A stretch of 64,000 nt of DNA, taken from Panax quinquefolius (Eukaryota; Streptophyta; Magnoliopsida; Apiales; Araliaceae). The notes beneath the pieces are model-generated. The model ran no database searches, was not told the DNA's origin, and worked only from the letters and a program-made list of their open reading frames with translations. The translations under genes were made by a program, and so were the position numbers. How positions within the stretch are numbered: the first letter of the stretch is position 1; every line of letters starts with the position of its first letter. The stretch lies in NCBI GenBank assembly GCA_020205615.1, contig CM035151.1, positions 46,491,409 to 46,555,408 on the forward strand, read 5' to 3'. Below, in pieces: positions 950-41,478 of the stretch.

Positions 950-1510
950 ATTAGAGTTGGAATTGGATTCCATGATAACTAATTGGAGTTGAAATTGATT
1001 TTATTTTAACTAATTAGAGTTGAAATTGGATTCTATCTTTCCTTAAATAAAGGAGTTTATTTAGATATGAAATAAGATTTTATATTATTCAAAATAAAAG
1101 AGTTTATTTGTGAATAGGAAAGAGAATCCTAATTTCCTTAAATAAAGGAGTTTATTTAGATATGAAATAAGATTTCATATTATTCAAAATAAAGGAGTTT
1201 ATTTGTGAATAGGAAAAGAATAATCCGTGTTTCCTTTAATAAAAGTTTTTTTACATGGAATTGGATTCCATAATTAATTAAAATAAAAGAGTTTATTTTA
1301 ATTAAAGATTTTTTTTTTTTTACATGGAATTGGATTCCATAATTAATTAAAATAAAGGAGTTTATTTTGATTAAAGATTTTGATTAAAATAAAATAGTTT
1401 ATTTTATTCAAAATTGGATAAATTAAAATAAAATAGTTTTATTTTGATTTAAATTTGGATTAAAATAAAGGAGTTTATTTTGATTCAAAATTAGATTTTA
1501 TACTAACTAA
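950..1510 (+). repeat. Hairpin-bearing tandem repeats in Copia A leader
   Basis: Imperfect tandem units of roughly 70-100 bp built from inverted repeats. Examples: 1044-1063, 8-bp stem with loop GGAG; 1160-1180, 9-bp stem with loop AAG; 1324-1340, 7-bp stem with loop TGG. The AAATAAA/TTTATTT hairpin recurs about ten times at intervals of roughly 30-60 bp. The other Copia copies have the same blocks with a different number of units. No coding potential is seen. Confidence 0.85.
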
Positions 1511-2755
1511 ATTTGCCCATTAAATGATATCAATATATATATTAAATGTTTATTATTCATGAGATGAATGTTATTTATTGATGCATATGATGATGTGTAT
1601 GATAATAAATGGGATTGATTATGGACTATTGACCAATGTGATTGGATTTTATTTTAGTTGGATGCATGAATGTATGGGTTTTATTAAATGGGGTCTGCGC
1701 ACCTCGCCTTCTCTAATTTTTCTTAATGTAAATTCTATCTCCCTCCTATGTACTTCCCCTTGACTGCTGATCAAGGTTTCTATTTATTTTAAATAGTTTT
1801 GTAATAGGAATAGTTAGAATTAATTTTGAAAAATTAGAGATCAAAGGAGCAAGGAGCGCTTGAAGACCCGTTTGTAATGGAGCCCGGGTTTAAATGTAAT
1901 AGTTATATTTAAATATTATTTCTTGCACCCCTAGGGTTTGACCTTTTGGTTCACTTGGTGGCTCTAGTGAACCAAACTAGAATAAAAGTCCATAATCAAT
2001 CCGGGTAGAATATAGTATTCTATATGTGCATGCTTATACTATATATATATATATTATGCAAACATGCTTAGCATGTTAATTAATATATTACGTATTTTTA
2101 TATATATATGTGTGCATACGCGCTAAACAAGATGAGACAAATTAATAACAAACCCCTCAATTTTTATATTAAGTCCTAAGCGTTCAAAGATATTTGGAAT
2201 ATCGAACGTCGCCTTCTAGCATGATAAAATTAATAGAGTATTAAATATTTAATATGAGTTTGTTGTGTCACCACAAAGCAAGTATTAAGTATTTAAGATG
2301 TTAATTTATCACATTTGATGCTTATAAAGAAAATTGAACAATATTGTTTTGTTGTGTCACCACAAGGATGATATTTTTCTTTTTTGAATATATGGAGTGC
2401 TAGGTCGGACTTAACTTGGATAATTTTGATTCGGATGTGCCACCACTTGATCAAAATAATCTAAGAGGCAAAATAAAAGGAGTTTCATAGTTGATGTAAT
2501 TGACAAAAGTTGTCTACCTATTTATTTATATATAGTTTGTTGTGTCACCACAAGGCTATATACATTTGAAATGGGATCCTTATTCTCACTAGCAAATCTT
2601 TAATTAGATTTTGCGAAACTATAAGTGAGGTAATATAGTTTGAAGAAAATAGTGGGAGATACCAATTTAAAACAAGACCTAATTTATTTTGGTAATTAAT
2701 AAAAGAATGTATGTTAAAATGTTGTTAATTACAAATTCATTTACTGAATTTTACA
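1511..2755 (+). other. Copia A leader, last part, with TTGTGTCACCACAA motifs
   Basis: Non-coding leader before gag, about 1.2 kb, well conserved between copies. It holds three identical copies of the 14-nt inverted repeat TTGTGTCACCACAA at 2263-2276, 2352-2365 and 2540-2553 (5-bp stem, TCAC loop) and a decayed relative near 2437-2446. B, C and D have the same three copies at the same relative places. The 61-residue ORF inside this stretch has no recognisable family. Confidence 0.8.
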
Positions 2756-3592
2756 ATGTCTAAAATTACTATCAACTTTGCGAAGCATATTAGATGCTAA
2801 ATTAACCGGATGATTAAATGGATTGGTTAAGGAATTTGAGAATAGTTCTCATAGTTTGAAAAGCTATCTTATGTCCTTAATACGCCTATCCTCGCAATGG
2901 TTGCGAATAATGCCTCTGAGGAAGAGATTGCTACTTTTAGAAAGTGGCAAGATGATGCACAATGATTGGCTCAATGCATCATGCTCGCATCCATGAGTAA
3001 CGAGCTTGACGTCGACATGAAACTATGGATGCTCCTACTATATTCCCCGCACATCAAGTAGTTGATGGTGAGGAAAGTAGGGCCGATAGATATCGATATA
3101 TCTAAGGAGCTCTTCCGATCTAGAATGGCCAATGGCACTATAATGCTGAGACAAAAAAGTTCTTAACATAATCAATTTGATTGATCAATTAGGACAACCG
3201 GTTTTATCATGGATGGAGAGTTGAGCCAAGATTTGATCTTGCACTCACTCCCCTGACTCCTTTCACAATTGTTGTGAATTTTTCATATAAACAAGCTAGA
3301 TATCGCCTTCGTTGATTTGCTTTAACATGTTGAAAAATGATGAGAGTCACTTTCAACCAAGAAAGACCATGTCTTCTTGGTAGGGGCCAAAGGATCTTCG
3401 AAAAGAAGAACGATTCAAAGAAGGTATATAAAAGGCAAAACAAAGGATAATAAGAACAAAAGCGATACGGATAGCAAAGGAGTTTGCTTCCACTTTGCAA
3501 TAAGCTGGACACTTTGGAAAGAAACTGCGAGAAGCATCTTGCGAGGCTAACCAAAGAAGCTTAGTGAAGTTTCGATTACAAATACGATTTTT
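2756..3592 (+). pseudogene. gag: Copia gag (UBN2 type), broken
   Basis: The ATG at 2756 opens a frame beginning MSKITIN, followed in broken frames by RSILDA, WLRNLRIV and MLASMSNEL, motifs of the plant Copia gag (UBN2 family) that packages element RNA. A CCHC zinc knuckle follows around 3485-3530, but the frame shifts within it: the CTG codons read CTTTG here and CTG in element D. Several frameshifts and stops prevent a full-length product. The start is chosen because all four copies share this ATG and the following codons. Confidence 0.8.
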
Positions 3593-5853
3593 GTTCATGA
3601 TTGAAATAAATTTTTCTTTAAGTCGAGGTTCTACTTGGGTATTGGATACCGACTTTGGTTATCATAAATATAGATTTATGAAGGGACCAAGCGAAGTAGA
3701 AAGCTAAACAAATATAAGTAATCCTATGTGTGGGGAAATGTAGCAAAGGTTGCCATGCATTAGCCATAGAAACTTATAGTTTAGCAATGCCTACGGCAAA
3801 TCTATTAAGTCAATAAGTTGTTATTGTATTCCAGTTCTTGTTAAAAATATTATTTCCATTTTATTGTTGGACAATGAAATCTTTGGTATTATAATTAAGA
3901 ACAATTGTTGTTCTATTTATAATAATAATGTTTTGTATAGAATGGAATATTACTTAATGGATTTTGTATACTTGACTTACGTGAAAATATTTTTTGCAAA
4001 TTGAACAAACTAGTATAAAAAAAGGAGATGATCATTCAAAGAGTTGAATGTATGTATTTGTTGAAATACAAGTGTGAATTATTTGAAAGGTTCAAAGAAT
4101 TCAGAAGTGAAACAAATTGACAAAGTATTAAGATTCTTTGATTAGATCAAGGAATAAATACTTGTGCAATAAGTTTCTAGATCATCTCAAATGGTTTTCT
4201 CATAATGGACACCTCCTGATACGCAATAATTGATTGATGTATCTAAAAGGAAAAATCATACCTTGTTGGACATGGTGCGGTCCATAATGATTTTACCGAC
4301 ATTCCAGTATCCTTCTAGGGTCATGTCCTAGAAATGGCTGCATATCTACGAAAATGGTAACCTCAAAATCCATTTCAAGACTCCATAAAAGTTATGGATG
4401 GGGAGGATTCCTAATCTTAAGTATGTTAAGATAAGGGGTTGTCCAACTTATGTGAAAAGGTTTCAAAGGATAAGCTTGGGACAAGATTTGACAAGTGTCG
4501 ATTTGTGGGACATCCTAAAGTAAGTTTAGGGTATATGTTCTATAATTCTACTTAGCAAAAGGTGTTTGTTGCGAAACACCTACCTTTAAGAAGATAAAGG
4601 TGTTTATCATTAAAGGGCTAGTGGGAGGATAATAGATCTTGAAAAGTTCAAGAACCACAAAATACTATAAGTCAAATAAGAGGAACCTGTAGATAGACCT
4701 ATTATACCACAACTGAATCGTAAATCTGGAATAGTACCAAAGATACCTAGGAGGTATGGATTCATCATGGATGATGATGATGAGGTACACATCATAGAAG
4801 ATGATGATCCAGAGTTACATACGATGAGGTAAGTGTTGTAGACACTCAGAGAAATGGATTGAAGCAAGTTTCTCAAATATGGAACATTCGTTTTGATGAA
4901 AAAATCAAAAGAGTTTGATTTTATCAAAAATAAGAATGAACCTAGTGTGTACAAAAGGGTCAGTGGGAGCGTCGTGACATTCCTAATATTATATGTTGAT
5001 ATACTACGGATAAGGAATGACATACCAATGCTACAATCAGTAAAGATAAAGTTGTCTAAACATTCCTCCATGAATGATTTGGAAGAGTATCTTAATTGGG
5101 GATATAAATCTATATAGATAGATTTAAGAGGATGCTCGACTTAACCCAAGGAACGTATATTCATTTGATGCTAAAGTCGTTTAGCATGGCAAACTCCAAG
5201 AGATGTCTCATGTTGATGAGCTATGGAGTGTATCTCTTTAATAGTCCCCATAGACTCCAAAAGAGAGAGATCGCATGAGTGACAATCATGTATGCAATGA
5301 AATGTACGAGACACGATGTTGATCGGTCATATTATGGAGAAGTTCACTATGAGTCGGTGAAAAACATCTTAAAGTGCTTAACCCAAGCACTAAGGATGTG
5401 ATCATATTCATGGTGGGTCTAAATTAAAACTAGAGGGCTTAACAGACTCAAGTTTTTCAGACAGACCAAGATGACAAAAAAATCCACTTTAAGGTAAAGG
5501 GTTACCTTGAACAGTGGTGCAGTGAATTGGAAAGGTTCCAAACAACAAAAGAGTTCTTTGGTTTAGTGATAAAGACAAAGTATATAGCTATAAATGAAGT
5601 CGCAAGTTGATTGTTTGGATTAAAAGTTCATTACAGAACTAGAAATAGTTCCTAAGTCTCATCTTGGATCTAAACATGTGTTGTGGCACTTTCATTTGAT
5701 TATTAGAATCATTGAAAGATGGGAAATCACTATAGAGATAGTGGACTCTCATGAACAACATTACATATCCATTAACTAAAGCTTATCCAACAGCAGGATA
5801 ATCGTCACTTAGAGAAGAAGAGTATAAGATACCATGGCGATTGGCTTTAGTGC
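3593..5853 (+). pseudogene. pol: Copia pol remnant, internally deleted
   Basis: Scattered pieces of a Copia polyprotein in the expected order: a protease-like stretch around 3625-4010 (WVLDT-like, then motifs such as NNNVLY), integrase around 4110-4330 (FERFKEF; WTPPD-like), and reverse transcriptase at 4893-5117 (FLILYVD followed by RNDIPMLQSVK). RNase H and C-terminal pieces follow to the polypurine tract. The remnant is about 2.3 kb against roughly 3.5-4 kb for an intact pol, so large parts are missing. The catalytic YVDD has lost one Asp codon. No product is expected. Confidence 0.8.
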
Positions 5854-5864
5854 AAGTGGGAGAT
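5854..5864 (+). other. Polypurine tract, Copia A
   Basis: AAGTGGGAGAT lies directly before the TG that opens the 3' LTR. This is the usual plus-strand priming site of Copia elements and is identical in elements B (15129) and D (36817). Confidence 0.85.
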
Positions 5865-6808
5865 TGAAAGTAATATGCACACAAGCCAATCATGTTTGAT
5901 GATAAAGCATATACTTTGTAACAATCTTATTCATTTATTAATAAAAAGTATTAATTTATTAAAACTTTTAATTATCTACATGATGTTGTTTTATAATATG
6001 TGATAAACCCATAGTTTTAAGCAATGCTTTTAGAATAATGATGATGATCATTCTAATGAGATCTAAATTCTTAGAAAGCTTAAAACTAAAATAGTTCCCA
6101 ATCGTTGGATTACTAAATTGGGGATTAGTGAATCCGGATAGATTGGTACATACGTTGCTTTTTCATTGGATGAGGATGATTGATCTCATGATCATTTGTG
6201 TGGAGACACTAAAAGCAAGTATGTAGGTGCTTATTAGAGAATAAGTTCACTGAACGTGGCTCGCTAAGGAATACCTAATGGAGATTTACTTGCCTGTCAA
6301 AAGGAAATCCTGTAGTGATAGTAGTACAAGTGATCCTTGGACTTGAGATCATCATAGTATCTTGTGTATGATGAGTTATACTTTGACTTATTCCTTAAGA
6401 CCCTTAGGGTATATCAAAGGGTATGCTTGCGTATAATAAGTTGTACATGGAGATAATGTATGATCAATAAAGAATCTACCACTTCTAATAAAAAGAAGAG
6501 AAATGTCCTATGTGATTCGATAAATGACAACCCAAAGAGTCCTTGGCGGCGAAATGAAATTAGAAAGGAGTTTCTAATTTGCATTATTTGAGTTGTGCAT
6601 TTAAGAGTCGAAATACATATAATTAAATAAAATAAGACTTGACGATAATTCCATGTCTTATATTTAATTGGGACATTGTATGGTGGAAGGATTGAATTGT
6701 CACGGTAACTATTTACTCAAAGGTTCTTTAATGATTAATGTTGAAATCTATATTATCTGGAAAGTCGTTGATCGCTAGGAGGCTTATCCTTATTGTAGAA
6801 TAAATATT

Positions 6809-7323
6809 ATTTATTTAAATAAATTAATTGTTTAATTTATTTATTTAAATAAGATTAGAATTGTTCTAATTGATTTATTCACAACCTGGTTAATATATGG
6901 AGAACCTAAAGGGTCACACCATAAAAGGAAGAATAATTATTTAAGAAGTTAATGGCATAATCGTAATAATATGTTATGTATATTTAATTTAATCTATGGT
7001 GATAGAATAAATTAAATAGCTTAATATTTATTATTTAATATTTTAGAAATATTAAATATAAATTAATAAGAGGAGTCTTATTAATATTATTACAATTATT
7101 ATTATTTTAATTTCTAAAAGAGTTTAGGAATTAATTTAATATAAGTACTCTCATTTATTCCTAATTGGATTAGGAAGGAAAATTAGTTAAAGGAGTTTAA
7201 TTAATTATCCCTAATAAGATTAGGGAGCTTAATTAATTAAAAGAATTTAATTAATTAAATAAAACCCAATTCCTTAATTGTTAAGGTGGGTTGCCCACAT
7301 CTATAAATAAGAGGAGTCTTATT
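6809..7323 (+). repeat. Series of short perfect hairpins in Copia LTR
   Basis: Inverted repeats read directly: 6809-6824 (16-nt palindrome); 6854-6870 (7-bp stem, loop TTG); 7032-7058 (12-bp stem, loop TAG); 7062-7085 (10-bp stem, loop GGAG); 7158-7176 (8-bp stem, loop TGG); 7209-7225 (7-bp stem, loop AAG); 7272-7286 (6-bp stem, loop TTG); 7286-7298 (5-bp stem, loop TTG); 7306-7323 (7-bp stem, loop GGAG). The same set recurs in the other LTRs, with local losses in the 24998 copy. Confidence 0.85.
7301..7310 (+). promoter_or_regulatory. LTR TATA box, Copia A
   Basis: CTATAAATAA in the middle of the 3' LTR, a good plant TATA box, expected to start transcription some 30 bp downstream. It overlaps the left arm of the 7306-7323 hairpin. 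The same box is found at 9323, 16579, 26431 and 41038. Confidence 0.7.
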
Positions 7324-7771
7324 ATGGGTGTGGGGGTTGTTGACTTTTTTCTACAATGTACGTAATAATTCCAATTTGTGGGAGAGTACGCCTTTTTCTA
7401 TAGAGATAGAAAAAACTAGGTTTAGCCAATACACCATCTTCTTGAATCTTTATTTTTCCTTGGTGGATCACCTCTAGAGGCCAAACACTTGGGTGGCTAA
7501 CGTTGATCAAAGGAAGGAACCAAACCCGATGGATTCAAGTTGAGATCGAAAAAGTTTTTGAGGTGAACTTGTACTGAGGAAGCTCGATCTTCAAGGGTAT
7601 GATTTTTATTTCTTATTCTTCGTTTAATTAATAATTGTGCATAAAGGGTGATCCGGTATATGGTATATGGTTTGTAAAATTTTTTAAACTCGATTTTACA
7701 AACCTAACAAGTACTCAAGTTTCGCACTTTTTTGCAATTTGATTGCGTTCTTGAATATTACAAACCTAACA

Positions 7772-7874
7772 CCTCTTTTCATATCATGAATGTATCTCGA
7801 ATACTTTTTGACAATCTTTGATTATTAGTATCATTTCGAAATGTACTTATCATTGAATAGTTCTTGGAACTTCT
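7772..7874 (-). pseudogene. gag: Tekay G1 gag fragment between two Copia insertions
   Basis: This 103-bp piece aligns with the Tekay gag of G2 at about 42860-42925. Its right end (...GGAACTTCT) continues after element B at 17021 (CTTCTCCCAAGA...), where the G2 gag reads through GGAACTTCTCCCAAGAC. It is therefore the part of the G1 gag lying between the insertion points of Copia A and Copia B. It is degenerate and has no usable reading frame. Confidence 0.75.
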
Positions 7875-9764
7875 TGAAAGTAGTATGCACACAAAGCCAA
7901 TCATGTTTGATGATAAAGCATATACTTTGTAACAATCTTATTCATTTATTAATAAAAAGTATTAATTTATTAAAGGCTTTTAATTATCTACATGATGTTT
8001 GTTTTTATAATATGTGATAAACCCATAGTTTTAAGCAATGCTTTTAGAATAATGATGATGATCATTCTAATGAGATCTAAATTCTTAGAAAGCTTAAAAC
8101 TAAAATAGTTCCCAATCATTGGATTACTAAATTGGGGATTAGTGAATCCTGGATAGATTGGTACATACGTTAATGTTTTTGCTCATTGGATGAGGATGAT
8201 TGATCTCATGATCATTTGTGTGGAGACACTAAAGCAAGTATGTAGGTGCTTATTAGAGAATAAGTTCATTTGAACGTGGCTCGCTAAGGAATACCTAATG
8301 GAGTTTTATTTGCTGTCAATAGGAATTCTCAGAGTGATAGTAGTACAAGTGATCCTTGGACTTGAGATCATCATAGTATCTTGTGTATGATGAGTTATAC
8401 TTTGACTTATTCCTTAAGACCCTTAGGGTATATCAAAGGGTATGCTTGGGTATAATAAGTTGTATATGGAGATAATGTATGATCAATAAAGAATCTACCA
8501 CTTCTAATAAAAGAAGAGAATGTCCTATGTGATTCGATAAATGACAACCCAAAGTAGTCCTTGGCGAATAAGAATGAAATTAGAAAGGAGTTTCTAATTT
8601 GCATTATTTGAGTTGTGCATTTAAGGATCGAAATACATATAATTAAATAAAATAAGACTTGACGATAAATTCCATGTCTTATATTTAATTGGGACATTGT
8701 ATGGTGGAAGGATTGAATTGTACGGTAACTATTTACTCAAAGGTTCTTTAATGATTAATGTTGAAATCTATATTATCCGGAAAGTCGTTGATCGCTAGGG
8801 GAGGCTTATCCCTATTGTAGAATAAATATTATTTATTTAAATAAATTAATTATTTAATTTATTTATTTAAATAAGATTAGAATTGTTCTAATTGATTTAT
8901 TCACAACCGGGTTTAATATGGAGAACCTAAAGGGTCACACCATAAAAGGAAGAATAATTATTTAAGAAGTTAATGGCATAATCGTAATAATATATTTATG
9001 TATATTTAATTTAATCTATGGTGATAGAATAAATTAAATAGCTTAATATTTATTATTTAATATTTTAGAAATATTAAATATAAATTAATAAGAGGAGTCT
9101 TATTAATATTATTACAATTATTATTATTTTAATTTCTAAAAGAGTTTAGGAATTAATTTAATATAAGTACTCTCATTTATTCCTAATTGGATTAGGAAGG
9201 AAAATTAGTTAAAGGAGTTTAATTAATTATCCCTAATAAGATTAGGGAGCTTAATTAATTAAAAGAATTTAATTAATTAAATAAAACCCAATTCCTTAAT
9301 TGTTAAGGTGGGTTGCCCACATCTATAAATAAGAGGAGTCTTATTATGGGTGGTATGGGTTGTTGATTTTTTCAACATATCGTAATAATTCCAATTGTTG
9401 GAGAGTACGCTTTTTTCTATAGAGATAGAAAACTAGGGTTTAGCCAAACACCCATCTTCTTGAATTTTATTCTTCCTTGGTGGATCACCTCTAGAGGCCA
9501 AACATTTGGGTGGCTAACGTTGATCAAAGGAAGGAACCAAACCGGTGGATTCAAGTTGAACGCGAAAGGATTTGGAGGTGAACTTGTACCTGAGGAAGCT
9601 CGATCTTCAAGGGTATGATTTTATTCTTTATCTTTTCGTTTAATTAATAATTATGCATAAAGGGTGATCCGGGTATATGGTTTGTAAATTTTTAAACTCG
9701 ATTTTACACGCTTAGCACTTTTTTTGCAATTTGATTGCATTTCTTGAATATTACAAACCTAACA
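7875..9764 (+). repeat. 5' LTR of Copia B
   Basis: A 1890-bp LTR with TG...CA ends, containing the hairpin series seen in A and a TATA box (9323-9332). The next bases are the primer-binding site. Confidence 0.92.
9323..9332 (+). promoter_or_regulatory. LTR TATA box, Copia B
   Basis: CTATAAATAA in the 5' LTR, where it would drive the element's genomic transcript. The AATAAGA-GGAG-TCTTATT hairpin overlaps it. Confidence 0.7.
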
Positions 9765-9766
9765 AA

Positions 9767-9778
9767 GGGCATCGAGCC
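9767..9778 (+). other. Primer-binding site, Copia B
   Basis: GGGCATCGAGCC two bases after the LTR, a decayed form of TGGCATCAGAGCC (initiator tRNA-Met type). Confidence 0.7.
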
Positions 9779-10118
9779 AAACCTTTATGCAAATTATTAA
9801 TTGTTTTAATTTGATATATATATTGATATGTGTTTAGAACAATTTAATTGGGCATAATTTTATTGTATATAAAATTTATTAAAAAAAAAAAAAAAAAAAA
9901 AAATTGTCACGTAATTTAAATTAATTTTTTATATAAATTTAGTATATTCTAAATTTAATGTTATCAAAGTTGCCATGTTAATAACCCCGCACGTGCTTCC
10001 TTCAAAAAAAAATTAAATATATATAATAAGATATATATATACATGCTTGAATATCAATTATACAATATACCTTACATATTATGTATTTCAAGAATAATCT
10101 TGTTGTTTTAATAGATAA

Positions 10119-10181
<63 letters not shown>

Positions 10182-12068
10182 TTTTAATATTAAAATAAAA
10201 GTTTATTTTAATTTTAAAATAAAAAATATAATTTTAATCTTAAAAAATAAAAGGGTTTATTTTAATTTTAAAATTAAATTTCATGCTAACTAATTAGAGT
10301 TGGAATTGGATTCCATGATAACTAATTGGAGTTGAAATTGGATTCCATCTTTCCTTAAATAAAGGAGTTTATTTAGATATGAAATAGATTTTCATATTAT
10401 TCAAAATAAAAGAGTTTATTTGTGAATAGGAAAGAGAATCCTAATTTCCTTAAATAAAGAGTTTATTTAGATATGAAATAAGATTTCATATTATTCAAAA
10501 TAAAAGAGTTTATTTGTGAATAGGAAATATAATCCGTGTTTCCTTTAAATAAAGGAGTTTATTTACATGGAATTGGATTCCATAATTAATTAAAATAAAA
10601 GAGTTTATTTTAATTAAAGAGATTTTTTTTATTACATGGAATTGATTCCATAATTAATTAAAATAAAGGAGTTTATTTTGATTAAAATTTTGATTAAAAT
10701 AAAATAGTTTATTTTATTCAAAATTGGATAAATTAAAATAAAATAGTTTTATTTTGATTTAAATTTGGATTAAAATAAAGGAGTTTATTTTGATTCAAAA
10801 TTAGATTTTATACTAACTAAATTTGCCCATTAAATGATATCAATATATATATTAAATGTTTATTATTCATAGATGAATGTTATTTATTGATGCATATGAT
10901 GATGTGTATGATAATAAATGGGATTGATTATGGACTATCGACCAATGTGATTGGATTTTATTTTAGTTGGATGCATGAATGTATGGGTTTTATTAAATGG
11001 GGTCTGCGTATTCCTCGCCTTCTCTAATTTTTCTTAATGTAAATTCTATCTCCTCCTATGTACTTCCCTCGATCACGATCAAGGTTTCTATTTATTTTAA
11101 ATAGTTTTGTAATAGGAATATTTAGAATTAATTTTGAAGAATTGGAGATCAAGGACAAGAAGCGCTTGAAGACCCGCTTTGTAATGGAGCCCTAGTTTAA
11201 ATGTAATAGTTATATTTAAATATTATTTCTTGCACCCCTAGGGTTTGACCTTTTGGTTCACTTGGTGGCTCTAGTGAACCAAACTAGAATAAAAGTCCAT
11301 AATCAATCCGGGTAGAATATAGTATTCTATATGTGCATGCTTATACTATATATATATATATATTATGCAAACATGCTTCGCATGTTAATTAATATACGAC
11401 GCGTATTTTATATATATATACGCATGCGCGCTAAACAAGATGAGACAAATTAATAACAAACCCCTCAATTTTTATATTAAGTCCTAAGCGCTCAAAGATA
11501 TTTGGAATATCGAACGTCAGCCTTCTAGCATGATAAAATTAATAGAGTATTAAATATTTAATATGAGTTTGTTGTGTCACCACAAGGCAAGTATTAAGTA
11601 TTTAAGATGTTAATTTATCACATTTGATGCTTATAAAGAAAATTGAACAATATTGTTTTGTTGTGTCACCACAAGGATGATATTTTTCTTTTTGAATATA
11701 TGGAGTGCTAGGTCGGACTTAACTTGGATAATTTTGATTCTGGATGTGCCACCACTTGATCAAAATAATCTAAGAGGCAAAAGAAAAGGAGTTGCATAGT
11801 TGATGTAATTGACAAAAGTTGTCTACCTATTTATTTATATATAGTTTGTTGTGTCACCACAAGGCTATATACATTTGAAATGGGATCCTTATTCTCACTA
11901 GCAAATCTTTAATTAGATTTTGCTTTAACTATATAAGTGAGGGTAATATAGTTTGAAGAAAATAATGGGAGATACCAATTTAAAACAAGACCTAATTTAT
12001 TTTGGTAATTAATAAAAGAATGTATGTTAAAATGTTGTTAATTACAAATTCATTTACGAAATTTTACA
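9779..12068 (+). repeat. Copia B leader: (TA)n, hairpin repeats, TTGTG motifs
   Basis: Non-coding 2.3 kb leader with the same layout as in A. It holds a TA repeat at 10119-10178 (much shorter than in A), the hairpin tandem repeats at about 10280-10810, and three exact TTGTGTCACCACAA copies at 11572-11585, 11661-11674 and 11849-11862. A block near 9903-10080 differs from A. Confidence 0.85.
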
Positions 12069-12890
12069 ATGTCTAAAATTACTATCATCACAAGAAGCAT
12101 ATTAGATGCTAAATTAATCGAATCAAATTAAACGGATTGGTTAAGGAATTTGAGAATAGTTCTCATAGTCCGAAAAGCTATCTTATGTCCTTAATACGCC
12201 TATCCTCGCAATGGTTGCGCATAATGCCTCCGAGGAAGACATTGCTACTTTTAGAAAGTGGCAAGATGATGCACATTGGCTTTCAATGCATCATGCTCGC
12301 ATCCACGAGTAGTACGAGCTTCAAATCGACATGAAACTATGGATGCTCCTACTATATTCCCGCACATCAAGTAGTTGATGGTGAGGAAAGTAGGACCGAT
12401 AGATATCGATATCTAAGGAGCTCTTCCGATCTAGAATGGCCAATGACACTATAGTATGCATAAAAAAGTTCTTAACATAATCAATTTGATTGATCAATTA
12501 GGACAACTGGTTTTGTCATGGATGGAGAGTTGAGCCAAGATTTGATCTTGCACTCACTCCCCGGACTCCTTTCACAATTGTTGTGAATTTTTCATATAAA
12601 CAAGCTAGATATCGCCTTCGTTGATTTGCTTAACATGTTGAAAAATGTTGAGAGTCACTTTCAAACCAAGAAAGACCATGTCTTACCGGTAGGGGCCAAA
12701 GGATCTTCCTCAAAAGAAGAACGATTCAAAGAAGGTAAATAGAAAGGCATAAACAAAGGATAATAAGAACAAAAGCGATACGGATAGCAAAGGAGAGCTT
12801 GCTTCCACTACAATAAGCCCGACACTCGGAAAGAAATCTGCAGAAGCATCTTGCAGAGGCTAACCAAAGAAGCTTAGTGAAGTTTCGGTT
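12069..12890 (+). pseudogene. gag: Copia B gag, broken
   Basis: Starts at the family ATG (MSKITI). Pieces of the UBN2-type gag can be followed (RSILDA, WLRN, then the 12137-12334 stretch in a shifted frame) to a decayed zinc knuckle near 12800-12850. There the sites that read CTGCAA and CCTGGACACTGG in element D read CTACAA and CCCGACACTCGG. The frameshifts sit mostly at such CTG/CAG sites. Not functional as read. Confidence 0.75.
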
Positions 12891-27130: not shown

Positions 27131-27207
<77 letters not shown>

Positions 27208-31486: not shown

Positions 31487-31487
31487 G

Positions 31488-31500
31488 TGGCATCAGAGCC
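31488..31500 (+). other. Primer-binding site, Copia D
   Basis: TGGCATCAGAGCC, with the same form at 38706-38718. This is the best-preserved primer-binding site of the family and fits initiator tRNA-Met priming. Confidence 0.8.
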
Positions 31501-33821
31501 AAACCTTTATGCAAATTATTAATTGTTCAAATTTAATATGTATATTGATATGTGTTTAGAACAATTTAATTGGGCATAATTTTATTGTATAAAATTTATT
31601 AAAATAAAAAAAATAAAAAAAAAGCGTGAATTTTTTTTTTTTTTAATCAAAGTAAGCTACTGACTTTTTTTTTAAAGAGAAACATGCTTCGGTCATTTGT
31701 ATGCAAAAGTGTTTCACGTGATTTCAAGTAAAGGGTACAAAATCTCTCATATTATATATAATATATATAACGTTACTATATATATATATTATGGTATAAT
31801 ATGTCAAAGATTATTACAATGCATGGAGATTCAAAGATTATTATATATATATATATATATTATATATATATATATATACCGTTATATATTTAATATATAT
31901 AACTATTATATATATATATAACTATTATAATCTTAATTATTTTAATTTTAGAATAAAAAATTTTATTTTAATTTTAAAATAAAATGTTTATTTTAATCTT
32001 AAAATAAAATGGTTTATTTTAATATTAAAATTAAATTTCATGCTAACTAATTAGAGTTGGAATTGGATTCCATGATAACTAATTGGAGTTGAAATTGGAT
32101 TCTATTTTTCCTTAAATAAAGGAGTTTATTTTGATATGAAATTAGATTTCATATTATTCAAAATAAAAGGTTTATTTGTGAATAGGAAAAAGAATCATCT
32201 TTCCTTAAATAAAGGAGTTTATTTAAATATGAAATAAGATTTTATATTATTCAAAATAAAAGAGTTTATTTGTGAATAGGAAAGAGAATCCATGTTTCCT
32301 TAAATAAAGGAGTTTATTTAAATATGAAATAAGATTTCATATTATTCAAAATAAAGGAGTTTATTTGTGAATAGGAAAAGAATTCATATTTCCTTTAATA
32401 ATTTTTTTTTTTACATGGAATTGGATTCCATAATTAATTAAAATAAAAGTGTTTATTTTAATTAAAGATTTTTATATATATGGAATTGGATTCATAATTA
32501 ATTAAAATAAAGGAGTTTATTTTAATTCAAAATTAGATTTTATACTAACTAAATTTGCCCATTAAATGATATCAATATATATATATTAAATGTTTATTAT
32601 TCATAAGATGAATGTTATTTATTGATGCATATGGTGATGTGTATGATAATAAATGGGATTGATTATGGACTATCGATTGATATGATTGGATTTTATTTTA
32701 GTTAGATGCATGAATGTATGGGTTTTATTAAATGGGGTTCACAGACTTCGTCTTCTCTAATTTTTCTTAATATAAATTCTATCTCCCTCCTATGTACTTC
32801 CCTCGATCGCGATCAAAGTTTCTATTTATTTTAAAATAGTTTTGTAATAGGAATAGTTAGAATTAATTTTGAAGAATTAGAGATCAAGGAAAAGGAGCAA
32901 GGAGGCGCTTGAAGACCCGTTTGTAATGGAGCCCCGTTTAAATGTAATAGTTATATTTAAATATTATTTCTTGCACCCCTAGGGTTTGACCTTTTGGTTC
33001 ACTTGGTGGCTCTAGTGAACCAAACTAGAATAAAAGTCCATAATCAATCCGGTAGAATATAAGATTCTATATGTGCATGCTTATATTATATATATATATT
33101 ATATATTATGCAAACATGCTTCGCATGTTTATTAATAATATGACGCGTATTTTATATATATATATATGCATGCATGCACGCTTAAACAAGATGAGACAAA
33201 TTAATAACAAACCCCTCAATTTTTTTTTATTAAGTCCTAAGCGTTCAAAGATATTTGGAATATCGAACGTCGCCTTCTAGCATGATAAAATTAATAGAGT
33301 ATTAAATATTTAATATGAGTTTGTTGTGTCACCACAAGGCAAGTATTAAGTATTTAAGATGTTAATTTATCACATTTGATGCTTATAAAGAAAATTGAAC
33401 AATATTGTTTTGTTGTGTCACCACAAGGATGATATTTTTCTTTTTTGAATATATGGAGTGCTAGGTTGGACTTAACTTGGATAATTTTGATTCGGATGTG
33501 CCACCACTTGATCAAAATAATGTAAGAGGCAAAATACTGAGGAGTTGCATAGTTGATGTAATTGACAAAAGTTGTCTACCTATTTATTTATATATAGTTT
33601 GTTGTGTCACCACAAGGCTATATACATTTGAAATGAGATCCTTATTCTCACTAGCAAATCTTTAATTAGATTTTGCGAACTATATATATTGAGGGTAATA
33701 TAGTTTGAAGAAAATAGTGGGAGATACCAATTTAAAACAAGACCTAATTTATTTTGGTAATTAATAAAAGAATGTATGTTAAAATGTTGTTAATTACAAA
33801 TTCATTTACGAGAATTTTACA
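31501..33821 (+). repeat. Leader of Copia D
   Basis: Same layout as the other leaders: A- and T-runs, broken TA repeats (31742-31925), hairpin tandem repeats with three long units (about 32035-32540), and exact TTGTGTCACCACAA copies at 33324-33337, 33413-33426 and 33602-33615. The 31690-31840 block, with a short ATG frame, is shared only with the third leader (38905 on). Confidence 0.85.
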
Positions 33822-34627
33822 ATGTCTAAAAATTACTATCATCAACTGAAGCATATTAGATGCTAAATTAACTGAATCAATTAAATGGATTGGTTAAGGA
33901 ATTTGAGAATAGTTCTCATGGTTTGAAAAGCTATCTTATGTCCTTAATACGCCTATCCTCGCAATGGTTGCGAGAAATGCCTCGAGGAAAACATTGCTAC
34001 TTTTAGAAAGTGGCAAGATGATGCACGATTGGCTCAATGCATCATGCTCAAGATCTATGAATAACGAGCTTCAACGTCGGCATGAAACTATGGATGCTTC
34101 TACTATATTCCTGCACATCAAGTAGTTGATGGTGAGGAAAGTAGGACTGATAGATATCAGATATCTAAGGAGCTCTTCCGATCTTGAATGGCCAATGACA
34201 CTACAAAGATGCATAAAAAGTCCTTAACATAATCAATTTGATTGATCAATTAGGACAATGGGTTTTATCATGGATGGAGAGTTGAGCCAAGATTTGATCT
34301 TGCACTCACTCCCGGACTCCTTTCACAATTGTTGTGAATTTTTCATATAAACAAGCTAGATATCGACCTTCGATTGATTTGCTTAACATGTTGAAAAATG
34401 ATGAGAGTCACTTTCCAACCAAGAAAGACCATGTCTTACTGGTAGGGGCCAAAGGATCTTCTGAAAAGAAGAACGATTCAAAGAAGGTATATAGAAAGGC
34501 AAAAACAAAGGATAATAAGAACAAAACTGATACAGATAGCAAAGGAGTTTGCTTCCACTGCAATAAGCCTGGACACTGGAAAGAAACTACGAGAAGCATC
34601 TTGAAGAGGCTAACCAAAGAAGCTTAG
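33822..34627 (+). pseudogene. gag: Copia D gag with zinc knuckle, nearly readable
   Basis: Starts at the family ATG. The C-terminal part is open from 34334 to 34627: NFSYKQARYRPSIDLLNML, KKDHVLLVGAKG, a Lys-rich stretch, and the zinc knuckle CFHCNKPGHW, whose last Cys is lost (KETT instead of a K-x-x-C-type end). Comparing copies, an altered CTGC site there shifts the frame into an early stop. UBN2-type Copia gag binds and packages element RNA. Upstream frameshifts remain, so it is probably not functional as read. Confidence 0.8.
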
Positions 34628-36816
34628 TGAAGTTTCGGTTACAATACAGTTTTTGTTCATGATTGAAATAAATTTTTCTTTAAGTCAAGGTTCTACTTGG
34701 GTATTGGATACCGACTTTGGTTATCATAAATAGAGATTTATGAAGGGACCAAGCAGAAGTAGAAAGCTAAACAAATATAAGTAATCCTATGTGCGGGAAA
34801 TGTAGCAAAGGTTGCCATATTAGCCATAGAAACTTATAGTTTAGCAATGCCTACGGACAAATCTATTAAGTCAATAAGTTGTTATTGTATTCCATTTCTT
34901 GTTAAAAATATTATTTCCATTTTATTGTTGGACAATGAAATCTTTGGTATTATAATTAAGAACAATTGTTGTTCTATTTATAATAATAATGTTTTGTATA
35001 GAACTGGAATATTACTTAATGAATTTTGTATACTTGACTTACGTGAAAATATATTTTGTATATTGAACAAACTAGTATAAGAAAAGGAGATGATCATTCA
35101 AAGAGTTGAATGTATGTATTTGTTGAAATACAAGTGTGAATTATTTGAAAGGTTCAAAGAATTCAGAAGTGAAATAAATTGGAAAAGTATTAAGATTCTT
35201 TGATTAGATCAAGGAATAAATACTTGTGCAATAAGTTTTTAGATCATCTCAAATGGTTTTCTCACAATGGACGCCTCCTGATATGCAATAATTGATTGAT
35301 GTATCTAAAAGGAAAAATCGTACCTTGTTGGACATGGTGCGGTCCATAATGATTTTACCGACATTTCAGTATCCCTCTAGGGTCATGTCCTAGAAATGGC
35401 TTATATCTTACAAAATGGTAACCTTAAAATCCTACATTGAAGACTCCATAAAAGTTATGGATGTGGAGGATTCCTAATCTTAAGTATGTTAAGATAAGGG
35501 GTTGTCCAACTTATGTGAAAAGGTTTCAAAAGATAAGCTTGGGACAAGATTTGACAAGTGTAGATTTATGGGACATCCTAAAGTAAGTTTAGGGTATATG
35601 CTCTATAATCCTACTTAGCAAAAGGTGTTTGTTACGAAACACGCTGCCTTCTAAGATAAAGGTGTTTATCATTGAAGGGGCTAGTGGGAGGATAATAGAT
35701 CTTGAAGAGTTCAAGAACCACAAAACACTATAAGTCAAATAAGAGGAACACATGAGATAGACCTATTGTACCACAACCGAATCAATGAAATGCGGAATAG
35801 TACCAGAAGATACCTAGGAGGTATGGATTCATCATGGATGATGATGATGAGGTACGTACGCATCATAGAAGATGATGATCCGAGTTACATTCGATGAGGT
35901 AAGACTTCTAGTGTGTACAAAAGGGTCGATTGGGGCGTCGTGACATTCCTAATATTATATGTTGATATACTACGGATAAGGATTGACATACTAATGCTAC
36001 AATCAGTAAAGATAAAGTTGTCTAAACATTCCTCCACGAATGATTTGGGAAGAGTATCTTAATTGGGGATAAAATCTATAAAGATAGATACAACAGGATG
36101 CTCGACTTAACCCAAGGAACGTATATTCATTTGATGCTAAAGTCGTTTAGCATGGCAAACTCCAAGAGATGTCTCATGTCGATGAGCTATGGAGTGTATC
36201 TCTTAATAGTCCCCATAGACTCCAAAGAAGAGAGATTGCATGAGTGACAATCATGTATGCAATGAAATGTACGAGACCTGATGTTGATCAGTCATATTCT
36301 GGAGAAGATCACTGTAAGACAGTGAAAAACATCTTAAAGTTCTTAACCCAAGACTAAGGATGTGAGCATACATGGTGGGTCTGAATTAAAACTAGAGGGC
36401 TTTACAGACTCAAGTTTTTCAGACAGACCAAGACGACTGAAAATCCACTTTAAGGTAAAGTGTTACCTTGAACAAACGATTGCAAATGAATTGGAAAGGT
36501 TCCAAATAGCAAAAGAGTTCTTTGGTTTAGTGATAAAGACAAAGTATATAGCTATAAATGAAGTTGCAAGTTGATTGTTTGGATTAAAAGTTCATTACAG
36601 AACTAGGAATAGTTCCTAAGTCTCATCTTGGATCTAAACATGTGTTGTGGCACTTTCATTTGATTATAAGAATCATTGAAGATGGGAAATCACTATAGAG
36701 ATGGTGGACTCTCAAGAACAACATTACATATCCATTAACTAAAGCTTATCGAACAATGGGATAATCGTCACTTAGAGAAGAAGAGTATAAGATACAATGG
36801 CGATTGGCTTTAGTGC
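34628..36816 (+). pseudogene. pol: Copia D pol remnant
   Basis: Same deleted pol as in A and B. Readable pieces: a protease/integrase linker (34847-35080, SYNNNVLYRTGILLNEF-like, ending near LDLREN), reverse transcriptase with YVD and one Asp codon lost (about 35955), and an RNase H piece at 36362-36574 (GGSELKLEGFTDSSFSD, then TKYIAINEVAS), matching Copia RNase H motifs. Compared with A it lacks the segment before the YVD motif (around 35905). Not functional. Confidence 0.8.
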
Positions 36817-36827
36817 AAGTGGGAGAT
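36817..36827 (+). other. Polypurine tract, Copia D
   Basis: AAGTGGGAGAT directly before LTR3, identical to A and B. Confidence 0.85.
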
Positions 36828-38704
36828 TGAAAGTAATATGCACACAAGCCAATCATGTTTGATGATAAAGCATATACTTTGTAACAATCTTATTCATTTA
36901 TTATAAAAAGTATTAATTTATTAAAGGCTTTTAATTATTTACATGATGCTGTTTTATTATATGTGATAAACCCATAGTTTTAAGCAATGCTTTTAGAATA
37001 ATGATGATGATCATTCTAATGAGATCTAAATTCTTAGAAAGCTTAAAACTAAAATAGTTCCCAATCGTTGGATTACTAAATTGGGGATTAGTGAATCCGG
37101 ATAGATTGGTACATCGTTGCTTGCTCATTGGATGAGGATGATTGATCTCATGATCATTTGCGTGGAACACTAAAGCAAGTATGTAGGTGCTTATTAGAGA
37201 ATAAGTTCATTTGAGCGTTGGCTCGCTAAGGAATACCTAATGGAGTTTTATTTGCTGTCAATAGGAATTCTGTAGTGATAGTAGTACAAGTAATCCTTGG
37301 ACTTGAGATCATCATAGTATCTTGTGTATGATGAGTTATACTTTGACTTATTCCTTAAGACCCTTAGGGTATATCAAAGGGTATGCTTGGGTATAATAAG
37401 TTGTACATGGAGATAATGTATGATCAATAAAGAATCTACCACTTCTAATAAAAGAAGAGAATGTCCTATGTGATTCGATAAATGACAACCCAATAGTCCT
37501 TGGCCATTGAGCAGCGAGTGAAATTAGAAAGGAGTTTCTAATTTGCATTATTTGAGTTGTGCATTTAAGAATCGAAATATACATATAATTAAATAAAATA
37601 AGACTTGACGATGAATTCCATGTCTTATATTTAATTGGGACATTGTATGGTGGAAGGATTGAATTGTCACGGTAACTATTTACTCAAAGGTTCTTTTATG
37701 ATTAATGTTGAAATCTATATTATCTGGAAAGTCGTTGATCGCTAGGAGGCTTATCCTTATTGTAGAATAAATATTATTTATTTAAATAAATTAATTGTTT
37801 AATTTATTTATTTAAATAAGATTAGAATTGTTCTAATTGATTTATTCACAACCTTTAATATGGAGAACCTAAAGGGTCACACCATAAAAGGAAGAATAAT
37901 TATTTAAGAAGTTAATGGCATAATCGTAATAATATATTAAGTATATTTAATTTAATCTATGGTGATAGAATAAATTAAATAGCTTAATATTATTATTTAA
38001 TATTTTAGAAATATTAAATATAAACTAATAAGAGGAGTCTTATTAATATTATTACAATTATTATTATTTTAATTTCTAAAGAGTTTAGGAATTAATTTAA
38101 TATAAGTACTCTCATTTATTCCTAATTGGATTAGGAAGGAAAATTAGTTAAAGGAGTTTAATTAATTATCCCTAATAAGATTAGGGAGCATAATTAATTA
38201 AAAGAATTTAATTAATTAAATAAAACGCAATTCCTTAATTGTTAAGGTGGGTTGCCCACATCTATTAATAAGAGGAGTCTTATTATGGGTGTGGGGGGTT
38301 GTTGACTTTTACAACATAATGCATAATTCCAATTTGTTGGAGAGTACGCCTTTTCTATAGAGATAGGAAAACCGGGGTTTGAGCCAATACCCTTCTTCTT
38401 GAATTTTCTTCTTCCTTGGTGGATCACCTCTGAGGCCAAACATTTGGGTGGCTAACGTTGATCAAAGGAAGGAACCAAACCCGGTGGATTCAAGATTGAG
38501 CGAAAGGATTTGGAGGTGAACTTGTACTGAGGAAGCTCGATCTTCAAGGGTATGATTTATTCTTTATCTTTTCGTTTAATTAATAATTATGCATAAAGGG
38601 TGATCCGGGTTTATGGTTTGTAAATAATTTTAAACTCGATTTTACACGCTTAAAGCTTAATTTTTTGCAATTTGATTGCGTTCATGAATATTACAAACTT
38701 AACA
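36828..38704 (+). repeat. LTR3 of Copia cluster (3' LTR of D)
   Basis: An 1877-bp LTR with TG...CA ends, near-identical to LTR2 and sharing its altered TATA box (38262-38271). It is followed not by a target duplication but by another primer-binding site and leader, so it serves as both a 3' and a 5' LTR in a tandem arrangement. Confidence 0.88.
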
Positions 38705-39074
38705 GTGGCATCAGAGCCAAACCTTTATGCAAATTATTAATTGTTCAAATTTAATATGTATATTGATATGTGTTTAGAACAATTTAATTGGGCATAATTT
38801 TATTGTATAAAATTTATTAAAAATAAAAAAATAAAAAAAAACGTGAATTTTTTTTTTTTTTCAAAAAGTAAGCTTGCAGCTTTTTTTTTAAAGGAGAAAC
38901 ATGCTTCGGTCATTTGTATGCAAAAGTGTTTCACGTGATTTCAAGTAAAGGGTACAAAATCTCTCATATTATATATAATATATATAACGTTACTATATAT
39001 ATATTATGGTATAATATGTCAAAGATTACTGCAATGCATGGAGATTCAAAGATTATTATTATATATATATACTG

Positions 39075-39111
<37 letters not shown>

Positions 39112-40518
39112 GTTATATATATAATATATATAACTATTATATATATATATAACTATTATAATCTTAATTATTTTAATTTTAGAATAAAAAGTTTATTTTA
39201 ATTTTAAAATAAAATGTTTATTTTAATCTTAAAATAAAATGGTTTATTTTAATATTAAAATTAAATTTCATGCTAACTAATTAGAGTTGGAATTGGATTC
39301 CATGATAACTAATTGGAGTTGAAATTGGATTCTATTTTTCCTTAAATAAAGGAGTTTATTTTGATATGAAATTAGATTTCATATTATTCAAAATAAAAGG
39401 TTTATTTGTGAGTAGGAAAAAGAATCATCTTTCCTTAAATAAAGGAGTTTATTTAAATATGAAATAAGATTTTATATTATTCAAAATAAAAGAGTTTATT
39501 TGTGAATAGGAAAGAGAATCCATGTTTCCTTAAATAAATGAGTTTATTTAAATATGAAATAAGATTTCATATTATTCAAAATAAAGGAGTTTATTTGTGA
39601 ATAGGAAAAGAATTCATATTTCCTTTAATAATTTTTTTTACATGGAATTGGATTCCATAATTAATTAAAATAAAAGAGTTTATTTTAATTAAAGATTTTT
39701 ATATATGAATTGGATTCCATAATTAATTAAAATAAAGGAGTTTATTTTAATTCAAAATTAGATTTTATACTAACTAAATTTGCCCATTAAATGATATCAA
39801 TATATATATTAAATGTTTATTATTCATAAGATGAATGTTATTTATTGATGCATATGGTGATGTGTATGATAATAAATGGGATTGATTATGGACTATTGAC
39901 CAATATGATTGGATTTTATTTTAGTTAGATGCATGAATGTATGGGTTTTATTAAATGGGATCTCAGCGTACCTCGTCTTCTCTAATTTTTCTTAATATAA
40001 ATTCTATCTCCTCCTATGTACTTCCCTTTCACGATTAAGGTTTCTATTTATTTTAAAATAGTTTTGTAATAGAATAGTTAGAATTAATTTTGAAGAATTA
40101 GAGATCAAGGAGCAAGCGAGCGCGGAGCGCTTGAAGACCCGTTTGTAATGGAGCCCAGTTTAAATGTAATAGTTATATTTAAATATTATTTCTTGCACCC
40201 CTAGGGTTTGACCTTTTGGTTCACTTGGTGGCTCTAGTGAACCAAACTAGAATAAAAGTCCATAATCAATCCGGGTAGAATATAGTATTCTATATGTGCA
40301 TGCTTATATTATATATATATATATATATTATGCAAAACATGCTTCGCATGTTTATTAATATAATACGTATTTTATATATATATATGCATGCAATGCGCTA
40401 AACAAGATGATGAGACAAATTAATAACAAACCCCTCAATTTTTTTTATATTAAGTCCTAAGCGTTCAAAGATATTTGGAATATCGAGCGTCGCCTTCTAA
40501 AGATGATAAAATTAATAG
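38705..40518 (+). repeat. Third Copia leader, no genes
   Basis: Primer-binding site (38706-38718), TA repeats (39058-39155), hairpin tandem repeats (about 39240-39760) and the start of the conserved leader, very close to the leader after LTR2. It stops at 40518 in the sequence AATTAATAGAGTA, before the TTGTG motifs and gag, and joins the inner part of LTR4. Confidence 0.85.
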
Positions 40519-41478
40519 AGTATCCCTATTGTAGAATAAATATTATTTATTTAAATAAATTAATTGTTTAATTTATTTATTTAAATAAGATTAGAATTAT
40601 TCTAATTGATTTATTCACAACCTGCTTTAATATGGAGAACCTAAAGGGTCACACCATAAAAGGAAGAATAATTATTTAAGAAGTAAATGGGCGTAATCGT
40701 AATAATATATTTATGTATATTTAATTTAATCTATGGTGATAGAATAAATTAAATAGCTTAATATTTATTATTTAATATTTTAGAAATATTAAATATAAAT
40801 TAATAAGAGGAGTCTTATTAATATTATTACAATTATTATTATTTTAATTTCTAATAGAGTTTAGGAATTAATTTAATATAAGTACTCTCATTTATTCCTA
40901 ATAGGATTAGGAGGAAAAATTAGTTAAAGGAGTTTAATTAATTATCCCTAATAAGATTAGGGAGCTTAATTAATTAAAAGAAATTAATTAATTAAATAAA
41001 ACCCAATTCCTTAATTGTTAAGGTGGGTTGCCCACATCTATAAATAAGAGGAGTCTTATTATGGGTGAGGTTTTTGTTGACTTTTTCAACATATGGCATA
41101 ATTCCAATTGTTGGGAGAGTACACCCTTTCTATAGAGATAGAAAAACTAGGGTTTGAGCCAATACCCTTTTCTTGAATTTTCTTCTTCCTTGGTGGATCA
41201 CCTCTGAGGCCAAACATTTGGGTGGCTAACGTTGATCAAAGGAAGGAACCAAACCGATGGATTCAAGATTGAGCGAAAGGATTTGGAGGTGAACTTGTAC
41301 ACGAGGAAGCTCGATCTTCAAGGGTATGATTTTATTCTTTATCTTTTCGTTTAATTAATAATTATGCATAAAGGGTGATCCGGGTATATGGTTTGTAAAT
41401 TTTTTTAAACTCTGATTTTTACACGCTTCCGCACTTTTATGCAATTTGATTGCGCACATGAATATTACAAACCTAACA
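40519..41478 (+). repeat. LTR4 of Copia cluster, 5' half missing
   Basis: The last ~960 bp of an LTR, starting at TCCCTATTGTAGAATAAA and ending AAACCTAACA, with TATA box at 41038-41047, followed by the GTACT duplication. It pairs with LTR1 by shared variants (CCTAATAGGATTAGGAGG). Confidence 0.88.

Follow-up and report, generated by a model that had tools for sequence, protein, structure and literature searches.

Clusters of stem-loops are known from the long terminal repeats (LTRs) of Sireviruses, which are Copia elements and carry them upstream of the TATA box (PMC2829016, in part; maize form, PMC10760457, in part). There, the clusters are copies of a single motif, which has a CGG-CCG core in most cases and lies in the LTR (and, in two elements, also beside env). 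Here we analyze a Copia family in a stretch of 64,000 nucleotides (nt) of the Panax quinquefolius genome (assembly GCA_020205615.1, contig CM035151.1, positions 46,491,409-46,555,408, forward strand), which we call the window. This family shares with Sireviruses the stem-loop clusters in the LTR upstream of the TATA box, but its hairpins have varied arms, extend over the whole element, carry a 3'-terminal loop G, and have A/U pairs at the loop; instead of one CGG-CCG-core palindrome in many copies, the copy that we call element A holds 62 distinct A/U-rich cores. A first-pass annotation of the window had named no described Copia family with the trait, a claim that is too strong in view of the LTR palindrome clusters of Sireviruses, which are a single G+C-rich motif.

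Hepatitis B virus has a core protein without a zinc knuckle. In the part of PMC7612645 that bears on this work, that protein reads dispersed packaging signals with RGAG loops, three sites being named; the likeness to the Copia family lies in dispersed stem-loops of a reverse-transcribing element and in the tetraloops, of which GGAG and AGAG are the commonest here. In HIV-1, excerpts of PMC7599994 describe GGAG and GGUG tetraloops in SL2 and SL3 (psi) whose last G is bound by the CCHC knuckle F1, knuckle binding being favored by weakly paired, G-rich surroundings; the one-knuckle nucleocapsid protein of Moloney murine leukemia virus (MoMuLV) binds an exposed G. HIV-1 differs in having few hairpins, confined to the leader, a two-knuckle protein, and binding that has been measured, whereas here binding is proposed. 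The knuckles of Lin28 recognize GNNG, specifically its fourth G, and small hairpin loops at Lin28 sites contain AAGNNG and AAGNG (PMC3759924, in part), although Lin28 is an animal regulatory protein and no transposon is involved. Finally, LARD and TRIM elements are likewise non-autonomous, presumed to be mobilized in trans, and endowed with conserved predicted RNA folds, but Cassandra forms a super-hairpin of its LTRs (PMC7215508), whereas the present family has many local hairpins and gag-pol remnants. Element-wide retrotransposon hairpins with a fixed loop letter appeared in none of the titles and abstract openings that we searched, a scope outside which most subscription papers fall.

Hairpins with a shared loop G

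We take a hairpin to be a perfect stem; density counts use stems of at least 6 base pairs (bp) and loops of 3-5 nt, compared with dinucleotide or trinucleotide shuffles. A hairpin whose last loop letter is G on the sense strand is called an end-G hairpin, and one with the same property on the opposite strand a mirror form. Element A (931-7772) contains 60 hairpins with stems of at least 6 bp and loops of 3-4 nt; 51 are end-G hairpins, against 1.2 in trinucleotide shuffles, and 1 of the 60 is a mirror form (0.7 expected). The end-G hairpins are irregularly spaced, about 1 per 98 nt, and are densest in the leader and U3. The relevant parts of element A are as follows, L049 being a locus with an LTR of the related family described below.

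373-5865 and 5866-7772, + strand: element A, comprising the end of the 5' LTR, the internal part (373-5865), and the 3' LTR (5866-7772)
374-386, + strand: primer-binding site (PBS) of A, ATGGCATCGAGCC, directly after the LTR end
931-1510, + strand: leader hairpin array of A, 95-bp units plus further hairpins (predicted fold)
2750-5865, + strand: gag-pol remnant of A, with 32 end-G hairpins (stem at least 5)
3473-3488, + strand: hairpin AGCAAA-GGAG-TTTGCT, spanning codons S K G V C in the Gag zinc-knuckle region
5866-7772, + strand: 3' LTR of A, TGAAAG...CCTAACA
6557-6580, + strand: hairpin AAATTAGAAA-GGAG-TTTCTAATTT; in L049 the loop is GCAG and the stem identical
6790-7330, + strand: hairpin-rich U3 zone, ending at TATAAATA (7302-7309)
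7306-7323, + strand: hairpin AATAAGA-GGAG-TCTTATT; L049 has TATAAGA-GTAG-TCTTATA (outer A-T versus T-A)

The U3 zone (6790-7330) has 10 hairpins against 2.3 and 3.1 in dinucleotide and trinucleotide shuffles, respectively, and the leader (930-1510) has 13 against 2.7 and 2.7, a 3- to 5-fold excess; when at least two G/C pairs are required, the counts are 3 against 0.1 and 0.2 in U3 and 3 against 0.2 and 0.3 in the leader. The density above dinucleotide shuffles that the first-pass annotation had supposed for LTR and leader is therefore real, and the individual hairpins it listed there were recovered at or within 1-2 bases of their positions, 7286-7298 included. The exception is 6809-6824: the inverted repeat there is an AT palindrome that lies within the two hairpins at 6799-6815 and 6816-6843. 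The trait had been placed in non-coding parts, which is too narrow: the gag-pol remnant (2751-5850) has 30 hairpins against 3.6 and 3.2, an 8- to 9-fold excess. Along the window in 2-kb steps, the excess tracks the elements, with a mild excess in some flanking bins (8 against 3.0 in the bin at 18001; 11 against 3.5 at 17100-20100). End-G hairpins are near chance in flanking DNA with a Gypsy pol piece, and the flank at 17030-20000 has 5 mirror forms against 1.4 (stem at least 5; shuffle maximum 9). In RNAfold, the region means of z for the elements are -1.0 to -3.9 on the + strand and -1.5 to -4.2 on the - strand, lower than the -0.3 to -0.6 of two flanks.

Three properties go beyond that annotation: hairpins in the coding remnant, a peak of loop length at 3-4 nt, and the shared final G on the sense strand. 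With stems of at least 6 bp and at least one G/C pair, loops of 3 nt (24 against 1.8) and 4 nt (21 against 3.0) stand out; loops of 5 nt (6 against 1.9) and 7 nt (5 against 1.1) are fewer, loops of 0-2 nt are at chance, and longer loops are scattered (for example, length 27, 7 against 2.0). At stems of at least 5 bp, element A has 37 end-G triloops and 33 end-G tetraloops. The triloops are mostly W-D-G and the tetraloops R-K-W-G, with few exceptions, and C occurs in one loop only (GTCG). Loop reuse, also claimed by the first-pass annotation, is borne out: with each copy counted separately, scanning of the window copies gave TTG 26, TGG 24, TAG 23, AAG 20, and AGG 15 times, and among tetraloops GGAG 45 and AGAG 28 times. 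The arms differ in sequence, and what the hairpins have in common besides the G is weak pairing by the loop. The loop-adjacent pair is A-U or U-A in 60 of the 62 distinct 5-bp cores, the second pair has a 5' A in 47 of 62, and in the coding part of A, G/C occupies pairs 1-2 in 3 of 64 cases versus 35 of 96 for pairs 3-5.

Other copies of the family

The same hairpins recur in copies B, C, and D of the window, as had been noted, and also in a partial copy, with some differences. The coding part of B has 37 end-G hairpins against 2.2 expected. In the assembly of 3.57 Gb, a U3 probe gave at least 2256 first-look candidates, and among the 40 scored the best outside the window were 97-98% identical. 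Eight further 10-kb loci, chosen by their match to this probe, all carry the signal. The family parts of six forward-inserted loci hold 63, 59, 47, 22, 11, and 11 end-G hairpins (stem at least 6; 0.5-1.9 expected). The two reverse-inserted loci, L010 and L014, have 32 against 0.7 and 10 against 0.3, respectively, on their own sense (-) strand and 0 on the + strand. Because these copies carry the signal on their sense strand, assembly orientation and composition are removed as causes. Non-family sequence in the same loci has 0-2 on the + strand and 0-4 on the - strand (0.1-1.2 expected), and two arbitrary 3-kb stretches gave 3 against 1.2 and 1 against 0.9 (stem at least 5). In viral contigs, tblastn with three queries found no relatives.

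A related family that encodes protein

The copies in the window have no open reading frame of 200 amino acids (aa) or more, and hence no intact gag-pol frame, although some of the frame breaks may be assembly errors. Zinc-knuckle and RVT_2 matches in the remnant are both weak (RVT_2 in A at 4863-5114, E=4e-4, under the cut-off). L010 includes a pol fragment with about 75% identity to the window remnant, and a genome search with this fragment gave 7198 first-look candidates; the 40 scored were all at least 94% identical. All 30 loci cut from these have end-G hairpins above expectation (7-20 against 1.2-2.9; stem at least 5, 10 shuffles each), the lowest being L018, the truncated query copy. One of these relatives, L019, has a 757-aa open stretch with a copia-type gag, one zinc knuckle (CFHCNKPGHWKRNC), gag-pre-integrase, and integrase, and a 222-aa open stretch with RVT_2. 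Its profile matches above cut-off are Retrotran_gag_2 (6.5e-12), rve (1e-10), and RVT_2 (1.3e-14), with a zf-CCHC match at 1e-4. Relative to L019, about 270 and about 430 nt of pol are missing in the window family. The knuckle CX2CX4HX4C is readable in 18 of the 30 loci (5 with an internal stop), whereas 1 locus lacks the last C and 11 have no match. Three short Gag relatives (P0001-P0003), in their predicted form, are also without the last knuckle C. The Gag piece P0002 had at least 44012 first-look candidates in the genome, with 86-91% identity among 150 scored; this Gag lineage seems extremely abundant.

The open stretches of L019 allow the hairpins to be separated from the protein code. 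When synonymous codons are shuffled, the 757-aa stretch has 8 end-G hairpins against 2.05 (maximum 7 in 500 shuffles) and the 222-aa stretch 4 against 0.28 (maximum 2), both at stems of at least 5 bp; at stems of at least 6 bp, the 222-aa stretch has 3 against 0.09 (maximum 2). A 332-aa stretch of the L010 fragment gives 6 against 1.3, and the 222-aa stretch that continues it in L017 gives 0 against 0.1. In an earlier codon shuffle, the stop-free pieces of A, taken over all frames, had 32 against 6.0; because those frames overlap, L019 provides the cleaner test. The excess in the open frames of the relative indicates that the trait is a property of the lineage, present where protein is encoded. 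At stems of at least 5 bp, hairpin densities per kb in the window family and the relative are 10.8 and 4.1 in gag-pol, 14.7 and 2.7 in the leader-array region, and 6.2 and 6.3 in the rest of the leader. In L048, the one related leader read, the array is matched only briefly, at about 1414-1492, with two end-G hairpins there. Given the tandem units, gain of the leader array in the window family is the simpler reading, although its direction is not polarized against loss in the relative. As a separate observation, L049 has at 1760-2500 a reversed piece of the window family (91% identical) directly behind the LTR of the related family, and mirror-form hairpins occur there.

Variation between copies and families

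We tallied minority cells in alignments of 4-21 copies per piece. The count covered the sequence other than the leader array, window positions 4301-4519, loci L001, L004, and L017, and any alignment column that was gapped in more than a fifth of the copies or adjoined such a column. In the window family, stems are about half as variable as the remainder (113 of 8264 minority cells versus 1205 of 43630). The difference holds for A/T sites alone (56 of 6488 in stems versus 579 of 30601 outside), and the last loop G is steadier than other G (8 of 609 versus 345 of 7628), with nominal p values, which ignore relatedness, of 2.5e-10 and 1.6e-5, respectively. Other A/T loop sites are not less variable than outside (27 of 971). 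In a first count, leader stems were not lower, but the tandem units are misaligned there. The two LTRs of B differ by 1.8% and those of other pairs by 3-8%, and thus much of the variation between copies is older than insertion. The 13 leader units were too similar to each other to inform on covariation of the whole 95-bp unit.

Comparison between the two families gives a one-sided picture. Of 32 hairpins that were identified in the relative and align free of gaps, the window family has 25; it keeps the last G in 28, against 55 of 80 letters in the loop interior (p=0.03), and all 3 two-sided changes preserve Watson-Crick pairing. Picked in the window family, 26 of 48 stand in the relative, and many of its hairpins are changed or missing there. 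Loops are exchanged between families over unchanged stems (GGAG/GCAG, GTCG/GAGG, GTTG/GCCG, AAG/AGG, AGG/GAG, and TAG/TTG), and stems change on both sides (AATAAG..CTTATT versus TATAAG..CTTATA; AATCTAT..ATAGATT versus GATCTAT..ATAGATC).

Organization of the window

Several copies of the family lie in the window, every one on the + strand. They have the marks of Ty1/Copia elements, namely LTRs of the form TG...CA, an iMet-type PBS, and 5-bp target duplications (CTTCT and GTACT), with copia-type gag and RVT_2 represented through L019. The PBS of copy D, near 31486, reads TGGCATCAGAGCC and differs by one mismatch from TGGTATCAGAGC, which PMC7215508 gives as the plant PBS. The 95-bp leader unit consists of TTTCC, three hairpins, and GGAAA, at a spacing of 95 bp. 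The other copies are as follows.

7875-17021, + strand: element B, LTR to LTR, with CTTCT at both flanks
24998-41475, + strand: array of LTR, partial internal part, LTR, internal part (D), LTR, partial internal part, and partial LTR, with GTACT around the whole unit
27480-28060, + strand: leader hairpin array of copy C, 14 hairpins against 2.7
39260-39770, + strand: leader hairpin array of partial copy E, 11 hairpins against 2.3

The single GTACT duplication around 24998-41475 thus surrounds four LTRs, one of them partial, and three internal parts, of which two are partial; the arrangement looks as if a single insertion had grown into an array by unequal recombination between LTRs and by deletions in the internal parts. 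In the leader copies, long (TA)n tracts and A-runs separate the PBS from the hairpin array (660-840, 10110-10180, and 27090-27400). Small indels between copies fall at CAG/CTG-like sites (CAGAG/CGAG and CCTGG/CCGG; for example, near 31486 versus 26878 and 374, and 3255 versus 12560), and look like systematic base-calling error at methylated CHG sites. Between the Copia copies, at 22861-25063 on the - strand, is a Gypsy-type pol (RVT_1 5e-14, rve 1e-6), and a 205-aa gag-like frame at 42586-43203 (-) is perhaps part of the same Gypsy element; the Copia copies may have inserted inside it. Elsewhere, 59730-61429 (-) is a further LTR-retrotransposon-like stretch with an integrase core match slightly under the cut-off, and 48053-48159 (-) matches Rfam snoR71, a plant C/D box small nucleolar RNA. 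At the gathering score, Rfam has no known family within the Copia elements.

Discussion

The hairpins, their strand, the loop G, their presence in a coding relative, and the difference in density between families are direct observations. To account for them, we tentatively favor, on sequence and analogy, that selection on the sense RNA keeps the hairpins, most likely as dispersed packaging sites for a CCHC zinc knuckle, foremost that of the lineage's own single-knuckle Gag. Loops that are tied to the sense strand, end in G, vary more freely inside, and sit on labile inner pairs suggest a protein reader for which a single accessible G is essential. The sense-strand DNA holds many stem-loops with a shared loop motif, which is the pattern of dispersed packaging signals. 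The sense RNA would then be dotted with short hairpins, each presenting a G at the 3' end of a 3-4-nt loop beside two weak A/U pairs, and these would act jointly as binding sites that package the RNA into virus-like particles. Because pol stretches are missing and the copies here have no long reading frame, the window family probably borrows its proteins. Its surplus of hairpins in the remnant and leader, compared with the relative, is what would be expected of a parasite competing for Gag. A fuller candidate, in which a lineage-wide code of G-capped mini-hairpins is read by a single Gag knuckle and written partly in synonymous codons, and in which a non-autonomous offshoot amplified leader and gag-pol hairpins to outcompete its helper, is possible but rather doubtful.

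Several results weigh against packaging by Gag or against selection on the sense RNA altogether. Hairpin density in the LTR is alike in the window family and the relative (10.9 and 10.5 per kb; stem at least 5). At stems of at least 6 bp, the 757-aa stretch of L019 has 4 end-G hairpins against 0.74, equal to the shuffle maximum of 4, and another piece of the relative has none against 0.4. When the window family supplies the hairpins, the last G is retained no better than the loop interior (36 of 48 versus 82 of 116 letters; p=0.36), and Watson-Crick pairing is preserved in 9 of 19 two-sided changes (p=0.15). Among 29 copies of the relative, A/T-site variability is 0.040 in stems and 0.041 in the rest, and the last G is little less variable than other G (0.086 versus 0.105); such flatness is expected of mostly decaying insertions and equally of no selection. 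Between-copy variants show no wobble asymmetry either in the window family (GU 24, AC 18) or in the 29 relatives (GU 54, AC 52). The mismatches within end-G stems of A are strongly asymmetric (11 G.U and 0 A.C; 13 versus 1 in another count), but, as the asymmetry is absent among variants, we have dropped it as proof of sense pairing. Antisense RNAfold z is equally low, and the hairpins form on the antisense strand too (45 of 51 versus 42 of 51). In HIV-1, replacing the GGAG loop affects packaging little (PMC7599994, in part). The equal LTR densities and the one-sided loop-G test have slightly lowered our confidence in the packaging account. Nevertheless, of the origins first proposed for the hairpins, selected RNA structure is the best supported, through strand-bound loops, a conserved G, steadier stems, and some compensatory pairs, the negative tests within the relative notwithstanding.

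The main rival, which we consider unlikely, is template switching, in which a growing strand folds back on a 3-4-nt loop, copies its own arm, and returns, thereby making or repairing hairpins; the final G and weak inner pairs would then mark a preferred fold-back site rather than a protein site. This process would give perfect arms and loops mostly of 3-4 nt, as seen here, and would also yield lower stem variability between copies. Moreover, the G/C share of pairs 3-5 in the coding part of A (0.36) is close to local composition (0.35) and above that of chance hairpins (0.22). Template switching has been argued to create and maintain hairpins of rRNA genes that, like ours, have perfect stems, short loops (four-nt loops being enriched), and two-sided changes, although the main text of that source, as covered here, does not contain "retrotranspos" or "reverse transcri" (PMC8794818, in part). 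Alone, however, the process gives no reason for a last G steadier than other loop letters. In 13 hairpins compared between the families, both arms have changed, with 14 differences on the left and 19 on the right, 5 of the latter belonging to a single misaligned hairpin; hairpins persist within open reading frames; and the neighboring Gypsy pol piece (22500-24990) has no excess. Template switching accounts for the perfect stems and the short loops but leaves the G unexplained.

Alternatively, the sense-RNA hairpins could be selected for another reader or use, such as a host CCHC or cold-shock protein, RNA stability, translation control, or a shield against silencing. The sequence evidence for selection on sense RNA fits this equally well, and Lin28 is an animal host knuckle protein that reads similar loops (PMC3759924, in part). 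Since the hairpins span leader, coding remnant, and U3 and not one regulatory region, and the surplus in a family without proteins better fits competition for Gag, we regard these uses as quite unlikely. Sirevirus-like palindromes acting at the DNA level, as sites for U3 transcription factors and small-RNA hot spots, seem very unlikely: the densest U3 block does lie just upstream of the TATA box, as Sirevirus motifs do (PMC2829016, in part), but the arms have no common sequence, a palindromic DNA site does not need a strand-bound loop G, the trait runs through coding sequence, and stems of 5-14 bp are short for a small-RNA source. Chance, base composition, tandem duplication, or assembly artefact is hardly credible even though the leader units are tandem copies and assembly indels occur near CTG/CAG between copies, because dinucleotide and trinucleotide shuffles fall far below the observed counts, 62 cores are distinct, and eight further loci agree where their adjoining sequence does not.

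Other candidates were rejected on specific grounds: composition or chance by the shuffles, and a strand or assembly artefact by the reverse-inserted copies. Deamination of 5-methylcytosine at CNG centers to give TNG loops fails because mirror loops are missing and because it would not yield AAG, AGG, or GGAG. Loop editing by APOBEC3A and A-to-I editing as in fungi concern the wrong letter and would not create hairpins.

How the RNA of LTR retrotransposons is chosen for packaging in plants, and how non-autonomous elements win that choice, is in our judgment poorly known. The hairpin code described here is visible by eye, occurs in each copy of the family that we examined, and recurs in a coding relative that had thousands of first-look candidates; it thereby allows a direct test of zinc knuckle binding to loop-G hairpins. 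Should template switching be the true account instead, the element would preserve a natural record of how a reverse transcriptase makes hairpins.

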